64,000 nucleotides of DNA, taken from Syncephalis fuscata. Taxonomy: Eukaryota > Zoopagomycota > Zoopagomycetes > Zoopagales > Piptocephalidaceae. Shown here in pieces: positions 16,293 to 64,000 of this stretch. The stretch spans positions 248,001 to 312,000 of the forward strand of contig JAHLTZ010000027.1 of the NCBI GenBank assembly GCA_025786725.1, given 5' to 3'. The translations under genes were made by a program, and so were the position numbers. The notes beneath the pieces were generated by a model. The model had not been told where the DNA came from. It worked only from the letters and a program-made list of their open reading frames with translations, and ran no database searches. Positions within the stretch are counted from its first letter, which is position 1. Every line of letters starts with the position of its first letter.

Positions 16293-17882
16293 ATCAAACA
16301 TAAACACAATCGAATAACTTGATCAAATACAATCGAAATGAAGCCATATGTTTATTACTACAAACCCGCATGGCTGGATAGACACATTGACTGCAGTCCT
16401 GTTGGTAATACAATAGCACCATTGACTAGAGATGGATAAAGTGGCACATTGGCTAGAACTTATATAGAAGTAGACTAAATGGCAACTGTCAAATGATCTT
16501 GATTTCTGCCGATGGTAGTGTTTTGGGAGTATTGGTTATTCTATGTTTATATATGTCATATTAATTATGTTATAATACATAACTAAATAAATAAATATAC
16601 AATTATACTTACAAACTATTGATGCAATTTTAAATACAAAAAATGCTTGACATATGGTTAGTGTGTGGCTGAGTAATATACAATAATACTTGCAAATCCT
16701 TAATGCAAGTTATTAAACACGCACATGCAATATACAGCATATGTTTAGTACGTAGCTACTTGACTTTCAGTACTACTTATCCTCTATTAATACATGTCAT
16801 TAAGCACACACAGCGCATAACATTGCTGTAACAGCAATACTAGTGCATTAAACGTGTATTCTTCAACAGATGCACACGGCTATGGATAAACTAGCAGTAG
16901 TTTATAAACCATCAAATATACTAGTTAGTCTGCACACGCATTCAATTCGGCACTGGGACTTGGCTGCTAAAATAAACATGCTGTTTTTAGTGCCATGTTA
17001 TCAACTGCTGACACATGCCTATCGTTAGAAACTATTTACTGATATTAACTACTAGTTTCTACGTAATGGCCATTTTGATGATAAATAATTGAACTTGTGC
17101 ATTGACGCCATCGATGGTTTGCGCATAAAGTAATGCATACACATTGAGCTGCACTCACTAGGTCATCTCAATCAGATATAACCATTGCGTGTACTTTTTG
17201 CCATTGATGCTGTACATATCTGTTATTGTGTTGGCGCCAGTGTATAGCTGTTCCTTTACTATTGTAATATATATTGTGTATATTACACGTTGCTATACGT
17301 GCTGCTCACCAATAAAGTAATTACATATTATTGTTAGTGAACACTTTGTAAACTGAGCTTTATGCAGATAGATATTGCGCTAATGATTGCTGTATTAATG
17401 CTTATAAATAATGTTGCTGTGTGTTTATATGTATTGCAAACAATACATGTGCATTCTAGCCATCACTTGCTACTTGAATGATTACACTTTAAAATCGCTT
17501 GCTATATAAATCATATTTGCGATAGCCAATGTTGTGCAGTGCATTTACATTCAAATAAAATCATCAAGATATCTATACATTATGTCGATGCTTTACAATT
17601 GCAGCATGTTTATATAGACATAAACATTAGCAGAACAACACCAGAAGGCTTGTAAACTGATGCAGTCGACAAACAATATATCCAATTCTATTTAGCAACA
17701 AGTAGTTGAATTTGTTGCAATGCATGCAATAAAGCGATTAAAAGTTCTAATTCTTGAATGATTTGTAAGAGTGACTCTAAATGATGTTGTTTAACAATTC
17801 TGACTGATTTGATCCAATTTTAATCGAATCATTACTTTATTAATAAGGTTGTCGATAGCGTTGACAACAATAATTGCAATCT
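16293..17882 (-). pseudogene. Decayed micro-exon gene copy A (left arm of inverted repeat)
   Basis: Near-identical reverse complement of 22507-24174 (copy B). In minus orientation its 3' part aligns with the end of the intact micro-exon gene at 35.9-38.7 kb: one unit is preserved, with TTT between AG and GTAAGT (16613-16615), and the terminal-exon coding end (TCGGCAGAAATCAAGATC, then ATTTGA) is recognisable. Many donors are mutated (for example ATAAGT) and the acceptor before the terminal exon is lost, so I call it a relic. Compared with copy B it lacks about 80-90 bp, close to one repeat unit. It stops about 190 bp downstream of the epsilon-COP gene and lacks the membrane-ORF part that follows in copies B and D. 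Confidence 0.7.
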
Positions 17883-18072: not shown

Positions 18073-19274
18073 TTAAATAGCATAAGCTGCAGCTGCAGTA
18101 TCAAACAACGCACTCTTCTCCAATCTATTTTGAATCAATGGATGCATTGGATGGGATGCCTCCAAATCACTATTATTAATAAACAACTCGTTAATAAGAC
18201 AATCAGCAGATGTTATTAACTTACTCTAAGCGCGCCTCTGCATCCACTATATTACCAGTGAGGTAAAGAGATACTAAAGGTTGGCTAGCATTTCTGGGTT
18301 CTTTGCATCCTACAATTGTACTTCATTAGCAAGTGACGAATACGCTTATTGTTATAGTATACTTTACCGTAGACTGTGCCTCTAGCAGCAAACTTTCAGC
18401 CTCTGGATATCGCTGCATCATAAGATTACACGCTGCCTGTCCACATAGACTATTCGCAGAAATGGCTGCGTTGATACCGAATTCATCAAAAATATATGCC
18501 GTTGATTGACAGCGTTCACCACCCTATAAATAATAGTTTACAATTAGTTTTATATATACCAGTGTATCATGATATCCTTATCGTTTACGTACCACGCTTA
18601 GATTAGCCCATGCTTCGGCTAGTTGCAATGGCAAAGCATCATCGGACCATTCTTTAGCTGTTTCCAGTTCTTGTTGAGCAAGATCGGATCGACCCATCAT
18701 TAAATAGGCTTGAGTTCTTAGTGTTCCACTGTGTAACAAAAATCAATTAGACGCTATTCTCTAACGAAGCTTTGACGCCAATATCTTGTATCTATATCTT
18801 CTGGGTTACTTACCATTCAATATTACGCGAGTGTTTTGATAATGTTGCTACAGCATCTGTAGTCTTATGAGCAGCCAACAACAGCTGGCCTACCAGTGCT
18901 GTTGTAATACCATCAAGTGCTGGCTCACTGTCGGCAGTGTTGTCGCGTCCAGCCAATTCCAGTGCCTGCTCAGTTATCTTGGTGGCCGTATCTTCTCGCC
19001 CAGCACGCTGAGCTTGTATGTAACGCGCTAGCAATAATGCTGCATCCATAGCGCTTGCACCATCACTGCCCCCTGCCACGCGCTCTTTAAGTCCGTCAAC
19101 TGCTTCATCAGCTCGCTGAAGTGCCAATAGTGCACGGTAATAGATTGTGACAATTTCTTGTACTATAGCCGAACTTTCATCATCATTTAAATACGATTTT
19201 GCCTGGTCTGCTACTTCCTGGAAGCAGCCAAGATAGTAGAGATCGCGCAATTTTGTTAATGTATCAGCCGACAT
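18073..19274 (-). CDS. SEC28: Coatomer subunit epsilon (epsilon-COP)
   Basis: Subunit of the COPI coat for Golgi-to-ER and intra-Golgi transport; a TPR-like helical repeat protein that stabilises alpha-COP. Five exons, the first from 19274 (start chosen at MSADTLTKLRDL because family members begin just before the LRDLYYLG helix; an upstream in-frame ATG at 19340 is less likely). The sequence LRDLYYLGCFQEVADQAKSY is the diagnostic N-terminus, and the helical pairs continue to the conserved end HPMHPLIQNR. In exon 4, near 18275-18285, the frame breaks at AACCTTTAGTA; one additional T restores the expected ANL.VSLYLTGN segment. It is divergent from the GGTase-I gene across about 190 bp. Confidence 0.9.
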
Positions 19275-19467
19275 GATGGAGGAATAAGAAAGAATATAAC
19301 TAACAGAGAATTCACAAGTATTCAAATAAAATGATGACACGTCATGACAATTGTCGTTTTATTCTCTTCCATTCACTAACCAGTATTTACTAACTGTGCG
19401 GCTATTTAACAACAACAACAACAGTAGTAGTGACAATATCAATAGCAATAGCTTCAATCAATACAAC

Positions 19468-22506: not shown

Positions 22507-24878
22507 AGATTGCAATTATTGTTGTCAATGCTATCGACAACCTTATTAATAAAGTAATGATTCGATTAAAATTGGATCAAATCAGTCAGAATTGTTAAAC
22601 AACATCATTTAGAGTCACTCTTACAAATCATTCAAGAATTAGAACTTTTAATCGCTTTATTGCATGCATTGCAACAAATTCAACTACTTGTTGCTAAATA
22701 GAATTGGATATATTGTTTGTCGACTGCATCAGTTTACAAGCCTTCTGGTGTTGTTCTGCTAATGTTTATGTCTATATAAACATGCTGCAATTGTAAAGCA
22801 TCGACATAATGTATAGATATCTTGATGATTTTATTTGAATGTAAATGCACTGCACAACATTGGCTATCGCAAATATGATTTATATAGCAAGCGATTTTAA
22901 AGTGTAATCATTCAAGTAGCAAGTGATGGCTAGAATGCACATGTATTGTTTGCAATACATATAAACACACAGCAACATTATTTATAAGCATTAATACAGC
23001 AATCATTAGCGCAATATCTATCTGCATAAAGCTCAGTTTACAAAGTGTTCACTAACAATAATATGTAATTACTTTATTGGTGAGCAGCACGTATAGCAAC
23101 GTGTAATATACACAATATATATTACAATAGTAAAGGAACAGCTATACACTGGCGCCAACACAATAACAGATATGTACAGCATCAATGGCAAAAAGTACAC
23201 GCAATGGTTATATCTGATTGAGATGACCTAGTGAGTGCAGCTCAATGTGTATGCATTACTTTATGCGCAAACCATCGATGGCGTCAATGCACAAGTTCAA
23301 TTATTTATCATCAAAATGGCCATTACGTAGAAACTAGTAGTTAATATCAGTAAATAGTTTCTAACGATAGGCATGTGTCAGCAGTTGATAACATGGCACT
23401 AAAAACAGCATGTTTATTTTAGCAGCCAAGTCCCAGTGCCGAATTGAATGCGTGTGCAGACTAACTAGTATATTTGATGGTTTATAAACTACTGCTAGTT
23501 TATCCATAGCCGTGTGCATCTGTTGAAGAATACACGTTTAATGCACTAGTATTGCTGTTACAGCAATGTTATGCGCTGTGTGCGCTTAATGACATGTATT
23601 AATAGAGGATAAGTAGTACTGAAAGTCAAGTAGCTACGTACTAAACATATGCTGTATATTGCATGTGCGTGTTTAATAACTTGCATTAAGGATTTGCAAG
23701 TATTATTGTATATTACTCAGCCACACACTAACCATATGTCAAGCATTTTTTGTATTTAAAATTGCATCAATAGTTTGTAAGTATAATTGTATATTATTTA
23801 GTTATGCATTAAACATAGGCTCTGTACACTGTGTATTCAATAACATGTTTGATAGGTTATAAGTATTATTATATAATGTGGCTTATAGGCTAACTATATG
23901 ACATGTGGCATATTTATAAACATAGAATAACCAATACTCCCAAAACACTACCATCGGCAGAAATCAAGATCATTTGACAGTTGCCATTTAGTCTACTTCT
24001 ATATAAGTTCTAGCCAATGTGCCACTTTATCCATCTCTAGTCAATGGTGCTATTGTATTACCAACAGGACTGCAGTCAATGTGTCTATCCAGCCATGCGG
24101 GTTTGTAGTAATAAACATATGGCTTCATTTCGATTGTATTTGATCAAGTTATTCGATTGTGTTTATGTTTGATTTTATTGAAACATTTGAGGCCGATCAT
24201 TATTGCTGTTGGCCATGCGTAGAAAATTTGATAAAATATTAATAAAGCCATTGATTGCAATTCCATATTGTTCCGCAATTGTTGCTGCTGTTACTACGTA
24301 CAGTGTGGTTTCTTTGCATCTAAACGATCACTTCTATCTGCCAAGCTTCTACTGTTGCATTTTGGGCATATTTGCAATGTAAGATACTCGTTTATGGTGA
24401 CAAGAAGGTAGGACGACTAGCGTTTCTGATGTTCATCATTGTCTTGAGCATTCTTGGTATCAACTTGGTAGGCGCATATTATTTGCCAATCATTGATGCA
24501 GCAAATCGGCCTCTACCATATGCAATAATGATAGGCTGAGTGTCTTTACCAGTAACATCATGTGGCAACAGTTGTAATCAGAATATACGGCATGCCGTTG
24601 AGGTTACTTGAACAGGTGTTAATGTAAAATAAGAAAAATAAAGACTAGAAATTGAATAATGTTATCTATTGCTGTTCAAATACGCATGCTATTTATATTG
24701 TTATAATTAACATTATTGTATAATGTATTACTGAATAGAGCAATAAAATAGCAATAAGAAAAGATGGTGAAATGAGTAAACAAAAAAAATGTGGGGGCAA
24801 AATACAGTAGCTTCTTAGCTTTGATGGACTTTATTATTTATTTATTTAAGTATAGTTGTATTATACTAACTAGCTTAT
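22507..24878 (+). pseudogene. Decayed micro-exon gene copy B plus downstream membrane ORF (right arm of inverted repeat)
   Basis: Positions 22507-24174 are the reverse complement of copy A. On this plus-strand copy the array-like region includes AG-TTT-GTAAGT at 23774-23776 and a neighbouring unit with ATAAGT instead of GTAAGT, then the terminal coding end near 23960-23990. From about 24175 to 24878 it continues into a second conserved part shared with 34528-35215 and 40495-41050. There an open frame (24215-24382) and an overlapping frame ending at 24537-24539 encode hydrophobic membrane-like segments (SILGINLVGAYYLPIIDAA). Frames are interrupted relative to the other copies. I regard the whole as a relic two-part repeat. 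Confidence 0.7.
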
Positions 24879-28100: not shown

Positions 28101-30742
28101 TCAGGTGATTTAAGCGAATTATCTAAAATTGCTGCACAATAATCACGTGGAACTTTGGGTCGATTTGCCGATGCAATCAACATATAATACCTAATAGCAA
28201 CCTGTTTAGTTAATTAATACATATGTTTATGTAATTACTTACCGGCTAATGAATTCGGCCAAAGTACGTCGAGTTGGATAGCCACGTGAACTGATATGAA
28301 TGGTCTCTAAAACACCACAGGCCCGCAGTTGAGATAGTGTCATTTGTGGTTCAAATTTCCAGGCTACTTTGGCTTCATTTGGTTTAATACAACGGATATA
28401 GTGCACTTCAGTTGAGTTAATCGTTGACATTAATTCAATAAGCGATCCCTTGAATACTGAACCAAGTGTCGGTTTTTTGGGTGCATTTGCATTAAGACGA
28501 CCTTTGGGCGCAGGTGTGGCTGCCTCCTTTACTTCATTCATCTAGTCACACCCGTATTATTAATACATTACTATTGATATATGTATGTATATATATATGC
28601 CACTTACTGCTTGTCGGTGCTTTTGCACTTCATTAAAAAATTCAAATGTACTTGCTTCCAATACCTCCATAATCTCATCAGGCACATTATCACGATTCTT
28701 ATCAAGAAATCCCTCTGCCTCATAGGTTACATCATGTGCATAATGGCAGATGGTAAAGGCTGTTTGACCAAATCTTGGCTTCTTAAAGTACTTTTTGTTG
28801 GCTGGTGTATCCAATTGCTGATACAACTTATTAATAAAGTTTTCATCGGTACCAGATGGCATACGACTTTCTTCATCCAGTAGAGCTAGTACACCTAATT
28901 TGCCTTCAATCAGTGCGATACATGGCTGATTGTCTGTAAATTCAATAAATTGCCAGTCAATCTGTTCACGGACATATTCTTCCTGTTCCAGCTTGAATAC
29001 ATGTTGATTAAATTCTTGTTGCAACTTCTCATTGGCGTAGTTAATACAGAATTGTTCGAATGAGTTACGCTGAAAGTGTTCAAATCCATAAATATCAAGT
29101 ACACCGATAAAGCTATGACATAGACTCATGCTATCATCATTGCATAGCGTGGTGTTGACATTGGCTACAAGCCAGTCAAACAAGCTGGCATAGATGAATT
29201 TGGCAATAGAGTCTCGTACACTGACTGCTTGGGTTGGCGTCAATTTAGAAACAATCTTATCACTTCGCGTAACAATTTGTTTGTTGATGATCCATTTAGC
29301 TAGCATGTCGGAGTCCACGCCAAGTAATCGGGTTGCTGTGGCAAATGCCTCATCATCGTCGGATATAGAGGCATTAGTACGGCTTTGTGCGTTAATAACC
29401 ACATTGCCAAGATGTAGTAAACTGGCTAATATACGGAAAATATCCCATTGACGTTGTACGGACATGCCAATCGTCGAGAGGGCCTTTTGTGTTTCGACAA
29501 ACTCGTCAAAATCATTGACACCTTGAATTTCGCTGCAGTTGCCTTTTTTCAAGTAATTGAAGCTTGTACACTCATCAAGGCTAAGTTGGGCTCGTTCCGA
29601 GGGAGGTGCACCAGCACATAGCTAGTGTAATTACATTAAAACAATCAATAGATTAGCAAATTAGTTAAATAATATGTAATACACCATAGCGGCCGCTTCT
29701 TACCTGATAAAAGATATGGTAATTACGTTCCGAGTCCGGTTGGAAGATCAATCGCGAACGTTCAAGCAAATAGGTGCAAATAGTTGCACCAACAATACAA
29801 GATTGTTTATCAAAGTGAATCTGTATATATTTACCAAATCGACTACTGTTATCGTTACGTGTGGTTTTTGCATTACCAAACGATTCAAGAATTGGATTGG
29901 TGGCCATAATCTTTTCTTCGATTTCCGTGCCTCGGTCATCTCGTTTATTGGCATCGCTTATAGCTGCTTTATCGGTATTCTGAGTAGCCACAGTGGCAAA
30001 ATAGCGCATAATATACTTGGCGCTAACGGTTTTACCAGCACCACTTTCACCGGAAACAACAATAGTCTCATTGCGCTGCTCTTGAATCATATCACGAAAC
30101 GATTCTTCGGCAATGGCAAATAAATGCGGCTCTAGCTCACCTCGGCGTTTACCAGAATAGGCCGACATCAATTCAGGTGCATAGAGTTGAACACGTTGAA
30201 ATGGATTCATAGCAATCAGTACAATGCCGGAATAGGTGTATATATTATGCTGAGCATAACGGATACGCACATTATTCAACACTAATTATTTAATAATAGC
30301 AATAGTAATACAGTTAGCCATAATCTATCTATCTATATATATATATATTCTAAATATATAAACATTTAATAGAATAAACATACCAGCCGGTTCGTGTAAA
30401 TAACTAAGACTGGTCAAATCATCGGCACCATCAAGTACCTTTGGATTTCTTAATGGTGGCAATTCAGCACTTTCTGTACGGGCCAATTCAAATTTATGCG
30501 TCTTTGTCTATTATGACACCCATCAATGTGTTAACAGACCATTTACATAATAAACTTATTATTTTACTTACATCTTCACCACCAACAGAGCGGATGTCCA
30601 ATGTAACAAATTTATCATCCACTTCCTTACTTTCAATCTTGGCCAACTGCCAACCTTCCTCAGTATGAGGCACCCATACTTCAAGCCCCCGTACATACGG
30701 CTCTAAAGCATCGGATGATAGCATATTGATCGATATTGACAC
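25144..30742 (-). CDS. MYO2: Class V myosin heavy chain
   Basis: Actin-based motor for polarised transport of secretory vesicles and organelles. The roughly 13-exon gene encodes about 1,500 residues. In order: N-terminal SH3-like region ([15 protein letters not shown]), motor with P-loop GESGAGKT, switch [21 protein letters not shown], switch [22 protein letters not shown], actin-binding and converter parts ([27 protein letters not shown]), a lever arm with several IQ motifs ([14 protein letters not shown] and similar), a coiled coil (residues about 880-1080), a basic Ser/Arg-rich linker, and a C-terminal globular DIL domain that binds cargo adaptors. The tail ends in a Ser-rich segment. All catalytic motifs are intact and no frame break was found. 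The start at 30742 ([10 protein letters not shown]) is the first ATG in the exon. Confidence 0.95.
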
Positions 30743-35683: not shown

Positions 35684-35896
35684 TGAAAAGCAAATAAAAA
35701 TAAATGTAAATATAGCAATTTGATTATAGGCATAATTAAGATGAAACCATAGGTTTATTACTATAAGCTTACACAGTTGAATAGAAACAACTAGCTGCAA
35801 GCTTGTTAATAAAATAACGATTCCATTGATTAAAGACTGGATAAACCGGAGCATTGGCCAAAACTTGATATATAAATAGACTGGACGGCGTAGTTG

Positions 35897-38676
35897 TCAA
35901 ATGATCTTGCTTTTTACCGAATATATACCTAAAGTGTATTGGAATAGTGGTTTGATTGCACTACCAATGCTGATGTCTTGAAACCATCGATTATGCTGTA
36001 TTTACAAATAAATATATTATATGTTATATGGTTAATGTATAAACCATCAATATACAATGTTACTTACCGCCTAATATTATTATTAAGTTATTAATATACA
36101 CAATACATAATATATAATTAATGAATAGTCAATTAACATATAACACAACTTACATGCGCCTAATGTTAATTAGTTGATGAATATAGTTCGTCGTATATAA
36201 TTAGTGAGTATTCAGTTAATATACAATATAACTTACGACCTATTATATTAAATTATTGATACACACAATACATGGTATATACTTAGTTTATATTTAGTTA
36301 ATACACACTGCTACTTACTGCCTATTAATATTAAACAATTAGTACAATTAATAAATAGCATAGTTAGTATATAGTCAGTTAATACACAATATAACTTACA
36401 AGCTATTAATATTAAACAATTAGTACAATCAATAAATAGTAAAATTAATGTATAATCAGTTAATATACAACATAGCTTACTAGCTATTAATATTAAATAA
36501 TTGGTACAATTAATAAATAGCAGTCAATATATAGTCATTTAATATACAATATCACTTACACCCTATTAGTATCAAATAATTGGTACAATTAGTAAATAAC
36601 ATAATAAATATATAGTTAGTTAATATACAATACAACTTACAAGCTATTAATATTCAATAAACGGTGCAGTCAATAAATAGCATAGTCAATATATAGTTAG
36701 TTGATATACAATACTACTTACTATCTATTAATATTAAATAATCGGTACAATCAGTAAATAACATAATAAATATATAGTCAGTTAATATACAAGTCCACTT
36801 ACGACCTGTTAATATTAAATGAGCAGTATTATCAGTAAATAGCATAATTAATGTATATTAACTGAATATACAATATTACTTACACCCTATTAATATTAAA
36901 TAATTGGTATCATCAGTAAATAGCATAGTTAATATATAGTTAGTTAATATACAGTATCACTTACAGACTATTAATATTAAATAATTGATACAATCAGTAA
37001 ATAGTAAAATTAATGCAGTCAGTTAATATACAATACAACTTACAAGCTATTAATATTAAATAAACGGTGCAATCAGTAAATAGCATAATTAATGTATAAT
37101 CAGTTAATATACGATATAACTTACCAGCTATTAATATTAAATAATTGGTACAATTAATAAATAGCATAGTTAATGTATATTCACTTAATATACAATACAA
37201 CTTACACCCTATTAATATTAAATAATTGGTGCAATCAGTAAATAGCATAATTAATGTATAGTCAGTTAATATACAATACAACTTACACCCTATTGATATT
37301 AAATAAACGGTGCAATCAGTAAATAGCATAATTAATGTATAATCAGTTAATATACGATATAACTTACCATCTATTAATATTAACAGTTAGTACAATAAGT
37401 AAATAGCATAGTTAATGTATAGTCAGTTGATATACAATACAACTTACTTTCTATTAATGTTAAACAATTAGTACAATCAATCAATAGCATGGTTAATGTA
37501 TATTCACTTAATACACAATACAACTTACTTTCTATTAATGTTAAACAATTAGTACAATTAATAAATAGCATGGTTAATGTATATTCACTTAATACACAAT
37601 ACAACTTACTGCCTATTAATATTAAATAATTGGTACAATTAGTAAATAGCATAGTTAATGTAGTCAATATACAATGCTACTTACAATCTATTAATATTAA
37701 GTTGATACACACAGTATATGGATATAATTAGTGAGTAATTAGTTCATATACAATACAACTCACTCTCTATGGTATTAAGTTGTTGATGCATATAACACAT
37801 AATATATAATTAGTTAATACTCAATTAATATGCAATGTTACTTACCAACTATTCCATCAAGTTATTAATACACACAGTGCATGACACATAATTAATTTAT
37901 AAGTTAGCAATATACAATGCTACTTACGACCTATTAGTATGAAGTTATTGATACACACAACACATAATATGTAATTAGTCAATTTTCAATTAATATATAA
38001 TATAACTTACAAACTATTAGTATTGAGTTGTTGATATACGCGGTGCATGGTATAAAATTAGCGCATAGTTAGTTAAAATACAATACAACTTACCCCCTAT
38101 GGCATTAAGTTGTTGATACACACAATACATGCTATAATTAATTTATAAATCAGCAATATATAATATCACTTACGGCCTATTAATATTGAATTGTTAATAC
38201 ATATAATGTATAGCACGTGATTAGTAAGTAATCAATTAATATACAATACAACTTACATTCCTCTAATATTAATTCGTTGATGGATGTAGTACATGATACA
38301 TAGTTAGTGTATGTCCTATTGATATACAACGCAACCTACCAGCTATAAATATTTATTTGTTAATGAACACAATACATAGCATGTAATTAGTGAGTAATCA
38401 ATTGATATACAATACAACTTACATCCCCCTAATATCAAGTTGTTAACGCACACAGTGCATAGCATACAATTAGCGTGTAAATAATCAATATATAATATTA
38501 CTTGCCAGCTATTATAAACATTATTTAGCAATACTGTTAGTAAATATAATAATATGGCATATTTATTGTTATTACAACATACCACGACGAACTAAGGCTG
38601 GATTAGCATCCACAATGGCTGTAGTGGCTATCAAAGCCACAACAACGGTGCAAACGACGGCAATGGAAAGCTTCAT
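35897..38676 (-). CDS. Micro-exon gene: secreted six-cysteine peptide assembled from 31 exons of 3 or 6 nt
   Basis: Exon 1 (38583-38676) encodes a signal peptide (MKLSIAVVCTVVVALIATTA, then a VDA cleavage-like site) and ends one base into a codon at a GTATGT donor. Thirty-one micro-exons follow, 28 of 3 nt and three of 6 nt (38423, 38257, 36154), each lying between a minus-strand AG acceptor and a GTAAGT-type donor, spaced 75-86 nt. The terminal exon is 35897-35928, behind a longer 139-nt intron. In the phase fixed by exon 1 the joined micro-exons have no stop and give about 44 mature residues with six cysteines spaced C-x2-C-x3-C-x9-C-x5-C-x3-C, four tryptophan-region residues among them, ending ...SVKSKII then TGA. 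Donors vary naturally (GTAAGC, GTGAGT, GTAGGT, one GCAAGT). The splice model is read from sequence, not RNA. An effector or antimicrobial role is only inference from the small, secreted, cysteine-rich design. Confidence 0.78.
36068..38508 (-). repeat. Tandem array of ~81-83 bp intron-plus-micro-exon units
   Basis: Thirty-one degenerate units. On the minus strand each reads GTAAGT, then TGTATTGTATATTAA-like sequence, an AT-rich middle, TTAATATTAATAG and a variable triplet. Micro-exon starts (low coordinate) run 38506, 38423, 38340, 38257, 38174, 38094, 38011, 37928, 37846, 37764, 37685, 37610, 37529, 37448, 37368, 37287, 37206, 37125, 37044, 36965, 36884, 36803, 36722, 36641, 36560, 36481, 36400, 36319, 36237, 36154, 36068. 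There are two subtypes: the 5' dozen units (about 83 bp, GATACACACAATACAT-type centre on the plus strand) and the 3' units (about 81 bp, GGTACAATCAGTAAATAGCAT-type centre). Splice signals are conserved while the triplet between them is the most variable part. Confidence 0.92.
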
Positions 38677-38721
38677 GGTGATATTGATTTGTTAAAACAA
38701 ACAAATAAAAGAGATAGTAGA

Positions 38722-38822
38722 GTGTGGTTGGTATAAAGTGGAGAGTAGTGCGTGTATAGCAAGAAGTAGAGTGGGGTCAATATAGAGTGGAGAGTAGTGT
38801 GTGTTTAGTAAGAAGTAGAATG
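38722..38822. repeat. Duplicated ~50 bp block in the micro-exon gene promoter
   Basis: Two adjacent copies of a motif containing AGTGGAGAGTAGTG.GTGT.TAG.AAGAAGTAGA, at about 38722-38771 and 38772-38822, differing at several bases. It lies 45-145 bp upstream of the start codon. Confidence 0.8.
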
Positions 38823-38864
38823 TGATAATGATATTGCAGCTGGTTGTGTATTTTTTGTGGGCCA

Positions 38865-38870
38865 TTTATA
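38865..38870 (-). promoter_or_regulatory. Candidate TATA box of the micro-exon gene
   Basis: TATAAA on the minus strand about 190 bp upstream of the start codon of the signal-peptide exon. Position is plausible for a fungal promoter; there is no further support. Confidence 0.3.
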
Positions 38871-39002
38871 CTTATGGCTATGCTTAGATATTAGTATACA
38901 TTAGTATACAAGGCATACCATTGATGTGCAATATGAACCAATAAAGCAATCTAAATAATGGTTTGAAACGTGCGTGTACCAATAGATTTATGATGTGATA
39001 GA

Positions 39003-40494: not shown

Positions 40495-41915
40495 TATACA
40501 ATAATGTTAATTATAACAATATAAATAGCATGCGTATTTGAAACAATAGATAACATTATTCAATTTCTAGTCTTTATTTTTCTTATTTTACATTAACACC
40601 TGTTCAAGTAACCTCAACGGCATGCCGTATATTCTGTTACAACTGTTGCCACATGATGTTACTGGTAAAGACACTCAGCCTATCATTATTGCATATGGTA
40701 GAGGCCGATTTGCTGCATCAATGATTGGCAAATAATATGCGCCTACCAAGTTGATACCAAGAATGCTCAAGACAATGGCGAACATCAGAAACGCTAGTCG
40801 TCCTACCTTCTTGTCACCATAAACGAGTATCTTACATTGCAAATATGCCCAAAATGCAACAGTAGAAGCTTGGCAGATAGAAGTGATCGTTTAGATGCAA
40901 AGAAACCACACTGTACGTAGTAACAGCAGCAACAATGCGGAACAATATGGAATTGCAATCAATGGCTTTATTAATATTTATCAAATTTTCTACGCATGGC
41001 CAACAGCAATAATGATCGGCCTCAAATGTTTCAATAAAATCAAACATAAACACAATCGAATAACTTGATCAAATACAATCGAAATGAAGCCATATGTTTA
41101 TTACTACAAACCCGCATGGCTGGATAGACACATTGACTGCAGTCCTGTTGGTAATACAATAGCACCATTGACTAGAGATGGATAAAGTGGCACATTGGCT
41201 AGAACTTATATAGAAGTAGACTAAATGGCAACTGTCAAATGATCTTGATTTCTGCCGATGGTAGTGTTTTGGGAGTATTGGTTATTCTATGTTTAATACA
41301 TAACTAAATAATATACAATTATACTTACAAACTATTGATGCAATTTTAAATACAAAAAATGCTTGACATATGGTTAGTGTGTGGCTGAGTAATATACAAT
41401 AATACTTGCAAATCCTTAATGCAAGTTATTAAACACGCACATGCAATATACAGCATATGTTTAGTACGTAGCTACTTGACTTTCAGTACTACTTATCCTC
41501 TATTAATACATGTCATTAAGCACACACAGCGCATAACATTGCTGTAACAGCAATACTAGTGCATTAAACGTGTATTCTTCAACAGATGCACACGGCTATG
41601 GATAAACTAGCAGTAGTTTATAAACCATCAAATATACTAGTTAGTCTGCACACGCATTCAATTCGGCACTGGGACTTGGCTGCTAAAATAAACATGCTGT
41701 TTTTAGTGCCATGTTATCAACTGCTGACACATGCCTATCGTTAGAAACTATTTACTGATATTAACTACTAGTTTCTACGTAATGGCCATTTTGATGATAA
41801 ATAATTGAACTTGTGCATTGACGCCATCGATGGTTTGCGCATAAAGTAATGCATACACATTGAGCTGCACTCACTAGGTCATCTCAATCAGATATAACCA
41901 TTGCGTGTACTGCTT
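40495..41915 (-). pseudogene. Decayed micro-exon gene copy D with membrane ORF
   Basis: Same order as copy B: remains of the array and terminal coding end (41200-41915), then the membrane-ORF part (40495-41055), all on the minus strand. AG-TTT-GTAAGT is preserved at 41329-41331. Between that unit and the terminal end copy D has an even larger internal deletion than copy A. The membrane part opens with the FDFIETFEADHYCCWPCVEN frame (41053-40832) but stops before the second hydrophobic segment. The copy ends about 240 bp from the 3' end of the NUP93 gene. Confidence 0.65.
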
Positions 41916-61341: not shown

Positions 61342-63016
61342 ATGGATGAATTGTTTTCTAAGTTTACTGTTGACGCAATATCGTCAGTAGGCTGGGCTAT
61401 TCTTGGTGCTGCTAGCTGTATCACTGTGGTAAGTATATGCTTTTAGCTTATGTTTTTGTTAGTCTATTTTACTTAATAATGTTTATTTGTTATAGCAAAA
61501 AATCAACAATTATCTAAAACATGGCCAGCGACATTGTTCTCGAAGGTATCGTTATAATGATGCTACAGACGATTTATTGCTTTTACGGGATCGTTTTGAA
61601 ATTAAGTTAAAAATTGTTACACCTGCCATTGATTTGGTGGAGATTATTGCTGCTCGTGGCAATACAGCACTTGCATCTGTCCTTGAATTAACTACCGCAT
61701 TAAGGCGGGATATGGATCGATTTGCTATCCGATTAGACGCGGATATAGCCAAGTTGCATGCCGGAAGAAGAAGAAACGCAAATGCGAAAGAACACGCAGA
61801 GGCACAAGCAGTGTCGGCAACATGCTTAACGCAAGAACTTAAAGCACTATTTGCTCGTATCGAAGATACTGTGCCATTCCTTAATTTGGCACTGACTACT
61901 TCTGGTGCGAATTTGGGTACAAGTTTGCCTACAAGTGTATCGCCATCACGTTTAATGCAAGCTTCATCGGCATTGGCTGACTGTGCACGTCGTTTTAACA
62001 GCAAAAATGGGCTAAGTGAAGAATTAGTAGGATTTAAATTTAATTTGCAATTATATAGAGTGTTCCATGGCTCAATTCGGTCAAGATCGTGTAAAGATTG
62101 GACATGGGTCATGGAAATGGCTCGATGCACTGGACGTGTAGCACGCGTTCCAGGTGGAGAGGCTGCGGCTGCAGCTTCATCAGATCCGGATAATGTACTT
62201 GTCAGTACAAGTGACGGTCTTGAATTTGTCTACGATCTAGTGCTTGAAGAAGACTTTAACGACGGTCTTTATCACGAAGAAATTGCCGACAAAGAAGACG
62301 GTGTAGATGCAGGCGAAATACGTGGTCGTGAATGGCGTATTGCTGTTGAAGAAGTTGAGCGGCTTTATTACAGCTCTTCTGGACGTTTGTTAAATATCGA
62401 AGGGGCCAAACACCCAGTGCTTGTATTCAAGGTTGTACGTGGTGCTGGTCGATTAAGGTCGATTGAGCCTGTTCGTCCAAGTACACCGCCGCCACGTGGA
62501 TCGTCAGCCGATAATGCCGATGTCGATTGGTTTGCTATTGAGCTTTATCAAGAAGGCGATATGGTTGGCGATGTTTCCGACGAAGAGGATGAAGAGGAAG
62601 AGGACGCCATAGAGGACGAAGGCAGCGAAACCATATCGTTAACCGACAAATCTCAGTCTAATAATACAGATACCGCTTCTACTAATAACAAAAAGCAAAA
62701 TGATCCATCTCCTTTCTTGTTAGGCTCACCCGCCCCACTACCAATCGATGAAGCATCTAAGCCTACAGCAGCAGCCATGATTGGCACACTCAGTCTACTT
62801 GAATTTGTTGTTAGATTAAGTGCACTTGAAGTATGTTTACAACGATCGCATTTAGAAGCACCCGATGAAATGATCAATCTATTCCTTAAAGACGACCAAA
62901 TGTCAAAGGATAGTGTTGATATCGATGTGGCTGCGTCAAATGCCACATCTATCAACATTTTTACTGTTATTGCTATTGCTGTGTTTATTCTGATAATGTA
63001 CATTAAATTTAATTAA
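61342..63016 (+). CDS. YRB30: RanGTP-binding protein, Yrb30 family
   Basis: Fungal RanGTP-binding protein implicated in nuclear transport control. Two exons (61342-61428, 61496-63016) encode about 536 residues. The N-terminus has a hydrophobic segment (WAILGAASCITV) then the family core LLLRDRFEIKLKIVTPAIDL and VEIIAARGNTALASVLELTT, which is the most diagnostic part. The centre has beta-rich blocks (GREWRIAVEEVERLYYSSSG, HPVLVFKVVRGAGRLRS). An acidic Asp/Glu run follows near residue 355. The C-terminus ends in a hydrophobic helix (IFTVIAIAVFILIMYIKF), so the protein is probably tail-anchored, an addition not present in all family members. The gene is intact. Confidence 0.85.
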
Positions 63017-63232: not shown

Positions 63233-64000
63233 TTAAAATAAAATTGTTCGTTTATTGCTAAAAACTTTTATAGCTGAATAAGTACAACTGAGTGTAGACT
63301 TGTTGCAGACATAACAATCCCATTGAATAAAGAATGAATAAATCAAAATATTGATTGAAAATCGATATTTAAATAAACTAGTCGGCAATTGTTGGATGAT
63401 CTTGATTTTTACCAAAGATATACCTAAAATATATTAAACTGGTAGTCAGATTACGCTAAAATCCCCGTTTTTCTTATCAAATTATCCTTTTATATTTGTA
63501 GATACATACGATAAACGTTACATAGTTAATATTCAGGTTATCAATAACTTTTTTTACTTACAATCTGTTAATATCATAGTGCACACAGTAGACAGTATAT
63601 AGTTGGTTCATGTTTGATTAATATATAATTCCACTTACCCTCTATTAATAGCAAGTTATTAAGCACGCATAACACAAAGTATATATTTACCACATAGTCA
63701 ATTAGTATACAAAGCCATTTACTCCCTATTAGCGCAAACTATTAAACATATGCAGTGTATGATGTGTGTTTAAAGTATAGTTGATTAATCTACAATTTTA
63801 CTTACAAGCTAATAGTATTAATTTATTAGTAAACACACAATTCATATTATTTAATTAGTACGTAATTAATTGATTTATAGTATTACTTACGGTCGATTAA
63901 TATTAAGCTGTTGGAACAAACAGTACATACCATTTAATTAGTGCATAATTAACTGCTTTATAATATTGTTTACCAGCTATTGAGAATAAGTTATTGCTAC
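63233..64000 (-). CDS. Second micro-exon gene, 3' part (continues beyond the window)
   Basis: Same design as the gene at 35.9-38.7 kb. Micro-exons on the minus strand lie at 63974-63976, 63806-63808, 63723-63725, 63639-63641 and 63562-63564, each flanked by AG and GTAAGT, GTAAAT or GTAAAC, spaced about 77-85 nt. A 138-nt last intron (63424-63561) precedes the terminal exon, as in the first gene (139 nt). A unit at 63891-63893 has CG instead of the AG acceptor and would be skipped, which keeps the frame. In the homologous phase the terminal exon reads TCTTTGGTAAAAATCAAGATC but the stop seen in the first gene is replaced, so the frame stays open to 63233. Exon 1 and most units lie outside the window. 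Confidence 0.65.

Follow-up and report, generated by a model that had tools for sequence, protein, structure and literature searches.

Among the described genes assembled from many small exons, the micro-exon genes (MEGs) of schistosomes are characterized, in the available part of the source, by 10–20 short exons, mostly of 15 bp with a minimum of 6 bp (3 in the abstract), and by introns of 0.1–5 kb (PMC10526429). The bicycle genes of aphids average about 17 exons, almost all of which are of phase 2 in the terms of that paper, as far as its accessible text goes (PMC9168663). A single 3-nt exon can be spliced into a transcript, e.g. in Drosophila homothorax (PMC7392893, in part), and excerpts of a 2024 report present functional microexons as new for filamentous fungi (PMC11121469). 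Fungal genomes can also contain many near-identical introns, described, in the extracts available, as introner-like elements and introners (PMC4457414, PMC9860276). A search of open-licence papers found no description of genes with serial one-codon exons.

We analyzed a 64,000-nt stretch of DNA (the window) from Syncephalis fuscata of the Zoopagales (NCBI taxonomy); the organism is a fungus, as the initial annotation of the window had it. Syncephalis is described as mycoparasitic in the part of the source available (PMC10386755). Judging from its DNA, S. fuscata appears to carry dozens of secreted-peptide genes in which nearly each codon is located in its own 3-nt exon. The elements of the gene in the window are as follows.

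38677–38900, minus strand: upstream region, conserved in array and intronless copies of the family alike
38583–38676, minus strand: exon 1, 94 nt, start codon and predicted signal peptide MKLSIAVVCTVVVALIATTAIVDANPALVRR, phase 1
38509–38582, minus strand: intron 1, 74 nt, a type of its own, donor GTATGTT
36068–38508, minus strand: array of 31 microexons and 30 intervening introns, unit of about 81 bp
38508, 38428, 38342, 38262, 38176, 38096, 38013, 37930, 37848, 37766, minus strand: first bases of microexons 1–10
37687, 37612, 37531, 37450, 37370, 37289, 37208, 37127, 37046, 36967, minus strand: first bases of microexons 11–20
36886, 36805, 36724, 36643, 36562, 36483, 36402, 36321, 36239, 36159, 36070, minus strand: first bases of microexons 21–31
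38423–38428, minus strand: microexon 2, 6 nt
38257–38262, minus strand: microexon 4, 6 nt, directly preceding the first codon for cysteine in the mature part
36154–36159, minus strand: microexon 30, 6 nt
35996–36067, minus strand: last intron, 72 nt, 3′ end TACAG
35991–35995, minus strand: coding part of the terminal exon, CA (finishes the last codon, Ala) and the stop codon TAA at 35993–35991
35700–35990, minus strand: 3′UTR and downstream stretch, common to intronless paralogues (80.6–91.2% identity in the main matches)

After the 94-nt signal exon, which stops one base into the following codon, come 31 microexons (three of them, microexons 2, 4, and 30, of 6 nt and the other 28 of 3 nt) and a terminal exon with a near-immediate stop codon. 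The introns ahead of the microexons are 72–83 nt long and have GTAAGT-like or GC donors and TAG or CAG acceptors. The signal and terminal exons, which flank the array, join in frame, and the predicted spliced coding sequence of 201 nt encodes 66 amino acids, the signal and then AGGSEECRVCLENCKKNGWSAFWCHTWSTCSRACA, with six cysteines after the signal. Inspection by eye finds TATAAAT at 38870, upstream of the gene, and AATAAA at 35759–35754, within the 3′UTR/downstream stretch. The initial annotation had placed exon 1 at 38,583–38,676 with a GT donor (GTATGTT in the sequence), followed by 31 microexons (3 nt in 28 cases, 6 nt in three) between AG acceptors and GT or GC donors, and had read across them a stop-free frame with six cysteines; our gene model agrees with it in each of these points. 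The terminal exon is short, as had been described, but it starts at 35995 and its stop codon is at 35993–35991, so that it does not have the extent, ending at 35897, that it had been given. As the stop codon precedes 35897 by 94 nt, the earlier estimate of about 230 nt of coding sequence is too high.

The MEGs resemble the S. fuscata genes in having many tiny symmetric exons, mostly multiples of three, in series for a secreted product (here predicted from the signal sequence), and in being hard for automatic annotation, according to the available MEG text (PMC10526429). Unlike MEGs, the window gene has 31 microexons in a row, nearly all of 3 nt, and tandem introns of about 78 nt; in the arrays of the family, 376 of 384 introns measure 71–83 nt and 355 of the 384 exons 3 nt, in contrast to the long introns and mostly 15-bp exons of MEGs. 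The initial annotation had pointed to this difference, and the available text of PMC10526429 bears it out. With the aphid bicycle genes, as described in the accessible part of PMC9168663, the family shares numerous small internal exons with a common phase, a signal peptide, fast evolution, and a putative effector nature. It differs from them in belonging to a fungus and not an insect, and in the phase of its array introns, which is 1. The exons of bicycle genes are also longer than the 3-nt exons of the S. fuscata arrays. In homothorax, one 3-nt exon is part of an ordinary gene, whereas in S. fuscata such exons make up the whole mature peptide; introners are inserted in numerous genes throughout a genome, whereas the S. 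fuscata introns adjoin each other at a spacing of 3 nt and, to the extent observed, within a single family.

The pattern of the array is frequent in the 28.95-Mb genome, beyond what chance would produce. The paired pattern ATAGNNNGTAAGTN{50,80}ATAGNNNGTAAG has 2531 matches (1107+1424) and its reversed control has 0. The context AATAG-N{k}-GTAAGTNNTATTNTATA (begins GTAAGT), counted genome-wide over k=2 to 15, has 1064 matches for k=3, compared to 3 for k=2 and 0 for k=4; the range k=4–15 contributes 3 matches, every one of which is 6 nt. With TATTAG ahead of GTAAGT, a 6-nt spacing (TATTAG-N6-GTAAGT) is found 84 times (control 12), a count that takes in sites outside arrays as well, and a 5-nt spacing (TATTAG-N5-GTAAGT) 12 times (control 10), again regardless of array membership. 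The shared 5′ sequence of the introns has 1323 matches (control 6), 1064 of which directly follow AATAGNNN. The junction of exon 1 and intron 1, searched for with a pattern that asks for GTATGTTRCAAT, is present 75 times; in every case, 1 or 4 nt remain between CGTCGT and the donor, so that all 75 junctions are of phase 1. The window copy reads GTATGTTGTAAT at this junction, one base off the pattern, and is outside the 75 matches. Finally, 319 candidates for the signal exon were found genome-wide, 150 of them scored matches, a family size that alleles or duplicate contigs may inflate. Their open frames (79 at ≤45 amino acids, 13 between, and 58 at ≥68 amino acids) divide them roughly into array and contiguous kinds. 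The initial annotation had presented the locus as a single oddity; it belongs instead to a large family, and its description as a secreted peptide gene made of tiny exons fits the sequence tests that follow.

The loci that we fetched were chosen as best matches rather than at random; their 38 segments contain 40 signal exons, 23 of array copies and 17 of contiguous ones, and most arrays were read about 1.5 kb in. Microexons were chained by splice-site scores alone, blind to the reading frame, and exons longer than 15 nt were disallowed. The 23 array copies gave 384 chained microexons, of which 355 are 3 nt, 25 are 6 nt, and four are of other sizes (0, 2, 2, and 13 nt); as array units copy one another, these counts are not independent. 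The four odd-sized microexons fall in three copies: C1:475325, which has no working donor and is interrupted by an insertion, C24:26228, in which one acceptor is lost, and C246:35500, which contains a 2-nt exon. Chains of fewer than 15 microexons were obtained for six copies, and four of these were inspected: three are broken by an inserted element and one has a below-threshold site. The donor is exactly GTAAGT in 323 of the 384 units, and a loose YTRAY motif is found at −50 to −12 in 380 of 384 introns, a figure given without a control set.

The inserted element is present within array introns of C1:475325, C164, C267:483167, C158, and C201 (L015, L047, L053, L056, and L092), at a similar place shortly past the donor, and looked tRNA-derived by eye; ARAGORN found no tRNA in these five loci. 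The element is possibly removed along with the intron by splicing.

In the phase-1 frame, the 21 copies with at least eight microexons contain 66 cysteines and 0 stop codons, and the other two frames contain 8 and 42 stops. Permutation of the exon order introduced a stop in a mean of 12.0 of the 21 copies, with a minimum of six in 2000 runs. The spacing CxxCxxxC is found in nine of the 21 copies, compared to a permuted mean of 0.08 and maximum of 1; other cysteine spacings occur as well. The base composition of the microexons matches that of contiguous codon positions in phase 1 alone (L1 distance 0.40, versus 1.34 and 1.59 in the other phases). The stop counts and this fit led us to reject the alternative reading frames. 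Four arrays were followed to their ends, among which C1:575k alone has a cysteine-free mature part; the product of the C157 array, completed with a further stretch, has six cysteines.

Tandem Repeats Finder labels the array an 81-bp satellite, and the locus could in principle be a non-coding minisatellite that merely holds splice-like motifs. We give this reading practically no credence, given how the sequence performed when examined for frame, cysteines, stop codons, exon order, and homology, and given the in-frame joining of the flanking signal and terminal exons; a minisatellite that has no coding role was rejected on the frame, stop, cysteine, and exon-length evidence.

The homology evidence comes from the contiguous, intronless copies. 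The 3′UTR of the window gene, compared in pieces that start at the stop codon, is matched by 17 of 17 of them: the match reaches the stop codon in 14, begins a few bases later in two, and begins further down in the remaining copy, which has a longer frame. The region upstream of the ATG also matches in all 17 (in two over 52 nt only). The contiguous copies encode uninterrupted the six-cysteine framework that splicing would assemble in the arrays. Six cysteine columns after the signal are invariant in 13 contiguous and two fully spliced products, the 13 being drawn from 14 distinct contiguous products with the longer-frame product left out. These 15 sequences thus carry an invariant cysteine framework behind a signal peptide, as disulphide-rich secreted effectors do.

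At the DNA level, the spliced mature part matched contiguous mature DNA better than all 60 exon-order permutations in four of 17 copies (mean z 2.0), and in another count of four of 17, half or more of the 60 permutations did equally well. This modest similarity fits the family because its mature part changes fast: among 16 contiguous copies (120 pairs), mean identity is 50% for the mature part, 87% for the signal, 83% for the 3′UTR, and 80% for the upstream region. Conotoxin-like families have a conserved signal and UTR, a hypervariable mature part, and fixed cysteines. The S. fuscata family resembles such peptides in this pattern of conservation, not in gene architecture, and we claim no homology. 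Simple retroposed copies, inserted at other places, are not favored as the origin of the contiguous genes, as the homology extends through the 3′ flank as well as the region upstream.

Word-based searches of annotated proteins found matches in S. fuscata only and no insect protein, and brought up no relationship in sequence to MEGs or bicycle genes. The 11 public proteins found include P0001, a 100% match to the genome, and none of the 11 was recognized as a spliced array product, although not each was compared with its locus. In a diverged subfamily, C1:575k has one 15-nt exon and splices to RPNLIRRAVAPLAKR..., which resembles the public protein P0009 (KPNRIRRAVEPLAKR...), the gene of which, at C1:523550 (L095), is contiguous. 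Both P0009 and C1:575k lack cysteines in the mature part, as some family members do. P0009 and P0010 have the same signal peptide and very different mature parts (lysine/histidine-rich and glycine/proline/cysteine-containing, respectively), and the signal exon thus serves more than one peptide class. P0002 and P0004 are short public gene models that, by eye, seem to include a translated unit intron (KLYCILTDYALI in P0002). Pfam searches with 15 members gave five families, each in one member and with a best E-value of 0.0096, and homology could be hidden in such short, fast-changing peptides. The PDB sequence search gave matches at chance level only (best E-value 0.37), and the structure model of P0001 is of low confidence (pLDDT 68, pTM 0.34). 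On the sequence evidence, the peptide is probably a disulphide-bonded secreted effector in fungus–fungus interaction.

To compare rates of change, we used 15 pairs of close copies, in which columns were counted only where the identity of the surrounding intron was at least 85%. In seven gene-disjoint pairs, differences amount to 20 of 237 positions in microexons, 134 of 5413 in introns, 3 of 654 in splice sites, and 2 of 661 in the signal exon. The frequency of differences is thus about 3.4-fold higher in microexons than in introns (Fisher 5e-6), a contrast to which gene conversion of introns or alleles could add. Some near-identical pairs may represent alleles or duplicates in the assembly. 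Microexon divergence exceeds that of introns in 13 of the 15 pairs, and the other two pairs have no microexon change. Across 353 units, the variability of the three exon positions (0.69–0.74) is among the highest; nearby intron positions have a mean of 0.36 and a maximum of 0.71, and splice sites are near zero.

Several array copies are damaged or relics, and the array copies could all be decaying relics while the intronless copies do the work. This is very improbable: the 21 copies hold no stop codon, the frame is kept (1064 matches for k=3 versus 3 and 0 for k=2 and k=4), splice sites are near-fixed and the signal exon is conserved while the microexons change fast, and relaxed constraint alone would not make microexons outpace introns. 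We consider it highly likely that the window gene is functional, is spliced codon by codon, and belongs to a large family of small secreted, mostly cysteine-rich peptides that diversifies rapidly.

In the functional gene proposed here, the mature peptide would be written one codon per exon, with the signal exon ahead of it and a terminal exon, which carries the stop, behind it. Each unit of about 81 bp would consist of one spliceosomal intron of about 78 nt and one exon of 3 nt, sometimes 6 nt, with all introns in phase 1. Splicing, and its order, we infer: it would most likely proceed by intron definition, 5′ to 3′, during transcription. Each intron would be removed before the donor of the next microexon is used, such that this donor abuts an already joined exon, and the near-perfect GTAAGT may compensate for the absent exon context. 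The peptide would be freed after the signal and RR.

Alternatively, the arrays may be spliced loosely, with in-frame skipping giving rise to a cloud of single-residue variants whose variety is itself the function. With a length of 3 or 6 nt in 380 of the 384 exons, nearly any skip stays in frame, and the acceptor-less copy C24:26228 could presumably splice in frame one codon shorter. The six-cysteine framework, however, requires nearly all exons in order, donors are strong (exactly GTAAGT in the 323 units given above), and intronless copies yield a single product, all of which makes this reading unlikely compared to ordered splicing of every unit.

With ordered codon-by-codon splicing, duplication, loss, or exchange of a unit would add, remove, or swap one residue. 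As all units preserve the frame, none of these events would cause a frameshift, and the near-identical introns would supply the homology for recombination. In C1:534399, introns 20 and 24 and introns 21 and 25 are near-identical, which we read as a probable recent duplication of units. Introns 16 and 19 of the window gene score 77/78, yet the exons that follow them are GGT and CTT. We tentatively suggest, with doubt slightly outweighing conviction, that the 81-bp intron-plus-codon satellite is a device of peptide evolution, in which recombination between introns is combined with fast change of the 3-nt exons, and spliced cDNA sometimes returns to the genome as a contiguous gene. In-frame exon skipping perhaps also helps the satellite to write new peptides residue by residue.

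As to the origin of the arrays, copies of one intron may have invaded a contiguous peptide gene, in an introner-like gain, with unit duplication thereafter, rather than contiguous copies having arisen by cDNA-mediated intron loss; either course is compatible with a functional, codon-by-codon spliced family. Invasion is plausible, and we lean against it. Introns resemble each other within and between arrays, and the 1064 of 1323 that directly follow AATAGNNN speak for it. Contiguous and array copies, however, share both flanks, which recombination with a spliced cDNA could explain in one step, and a tree of the 40 copies mixes the two kinds. The best tree has at least six changes of architecture (4–7 over bootstraps), of which well-supported branches force only one, and it gives no direction of change.

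If transcripts confirm the gene models, no coding architecture known to us is more finely divided. The family would then be a natural test of how the spliceosome recognizes exons too short for exon definition, of the order and fidelity of splicing across consecutive short introns, and of how introns speed peptide evolution; one genome offers about 75 array-type first-exon junctions, more than 1000 3-nt exons, and contiguous twins as natural controls. The findings also suggest that entire families can escape annotation in the secretomes of early-diverging fungi, given that a spliced array product was recognized in none of the 11 public proteins.

The window contains ordinary genes by Pfam, including a myosin head (28560–29552, minus strand), a Ran-binding (61577–63016, plus strand), and a coatomer epsilon gene (18810–19340, minus strand). 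It also contains a decayed array relic at 63300–64000 (minus strand), continuing into L094, with microexon-like units and damaged splice sites; by eye, this relic has the family 3′UTR and, outside the window, a signal-like exon with a lost start codon and an early stop. Three more relics have few microexon-like units: 16400–16900 (minus strand), which at 16400–16600 adjoins an apparent family 3′UTR, 23700–23950 (plus strand), and 41250–41450 (minus strand). The first two of these three are in opposite orientation, about 7 kb apart.
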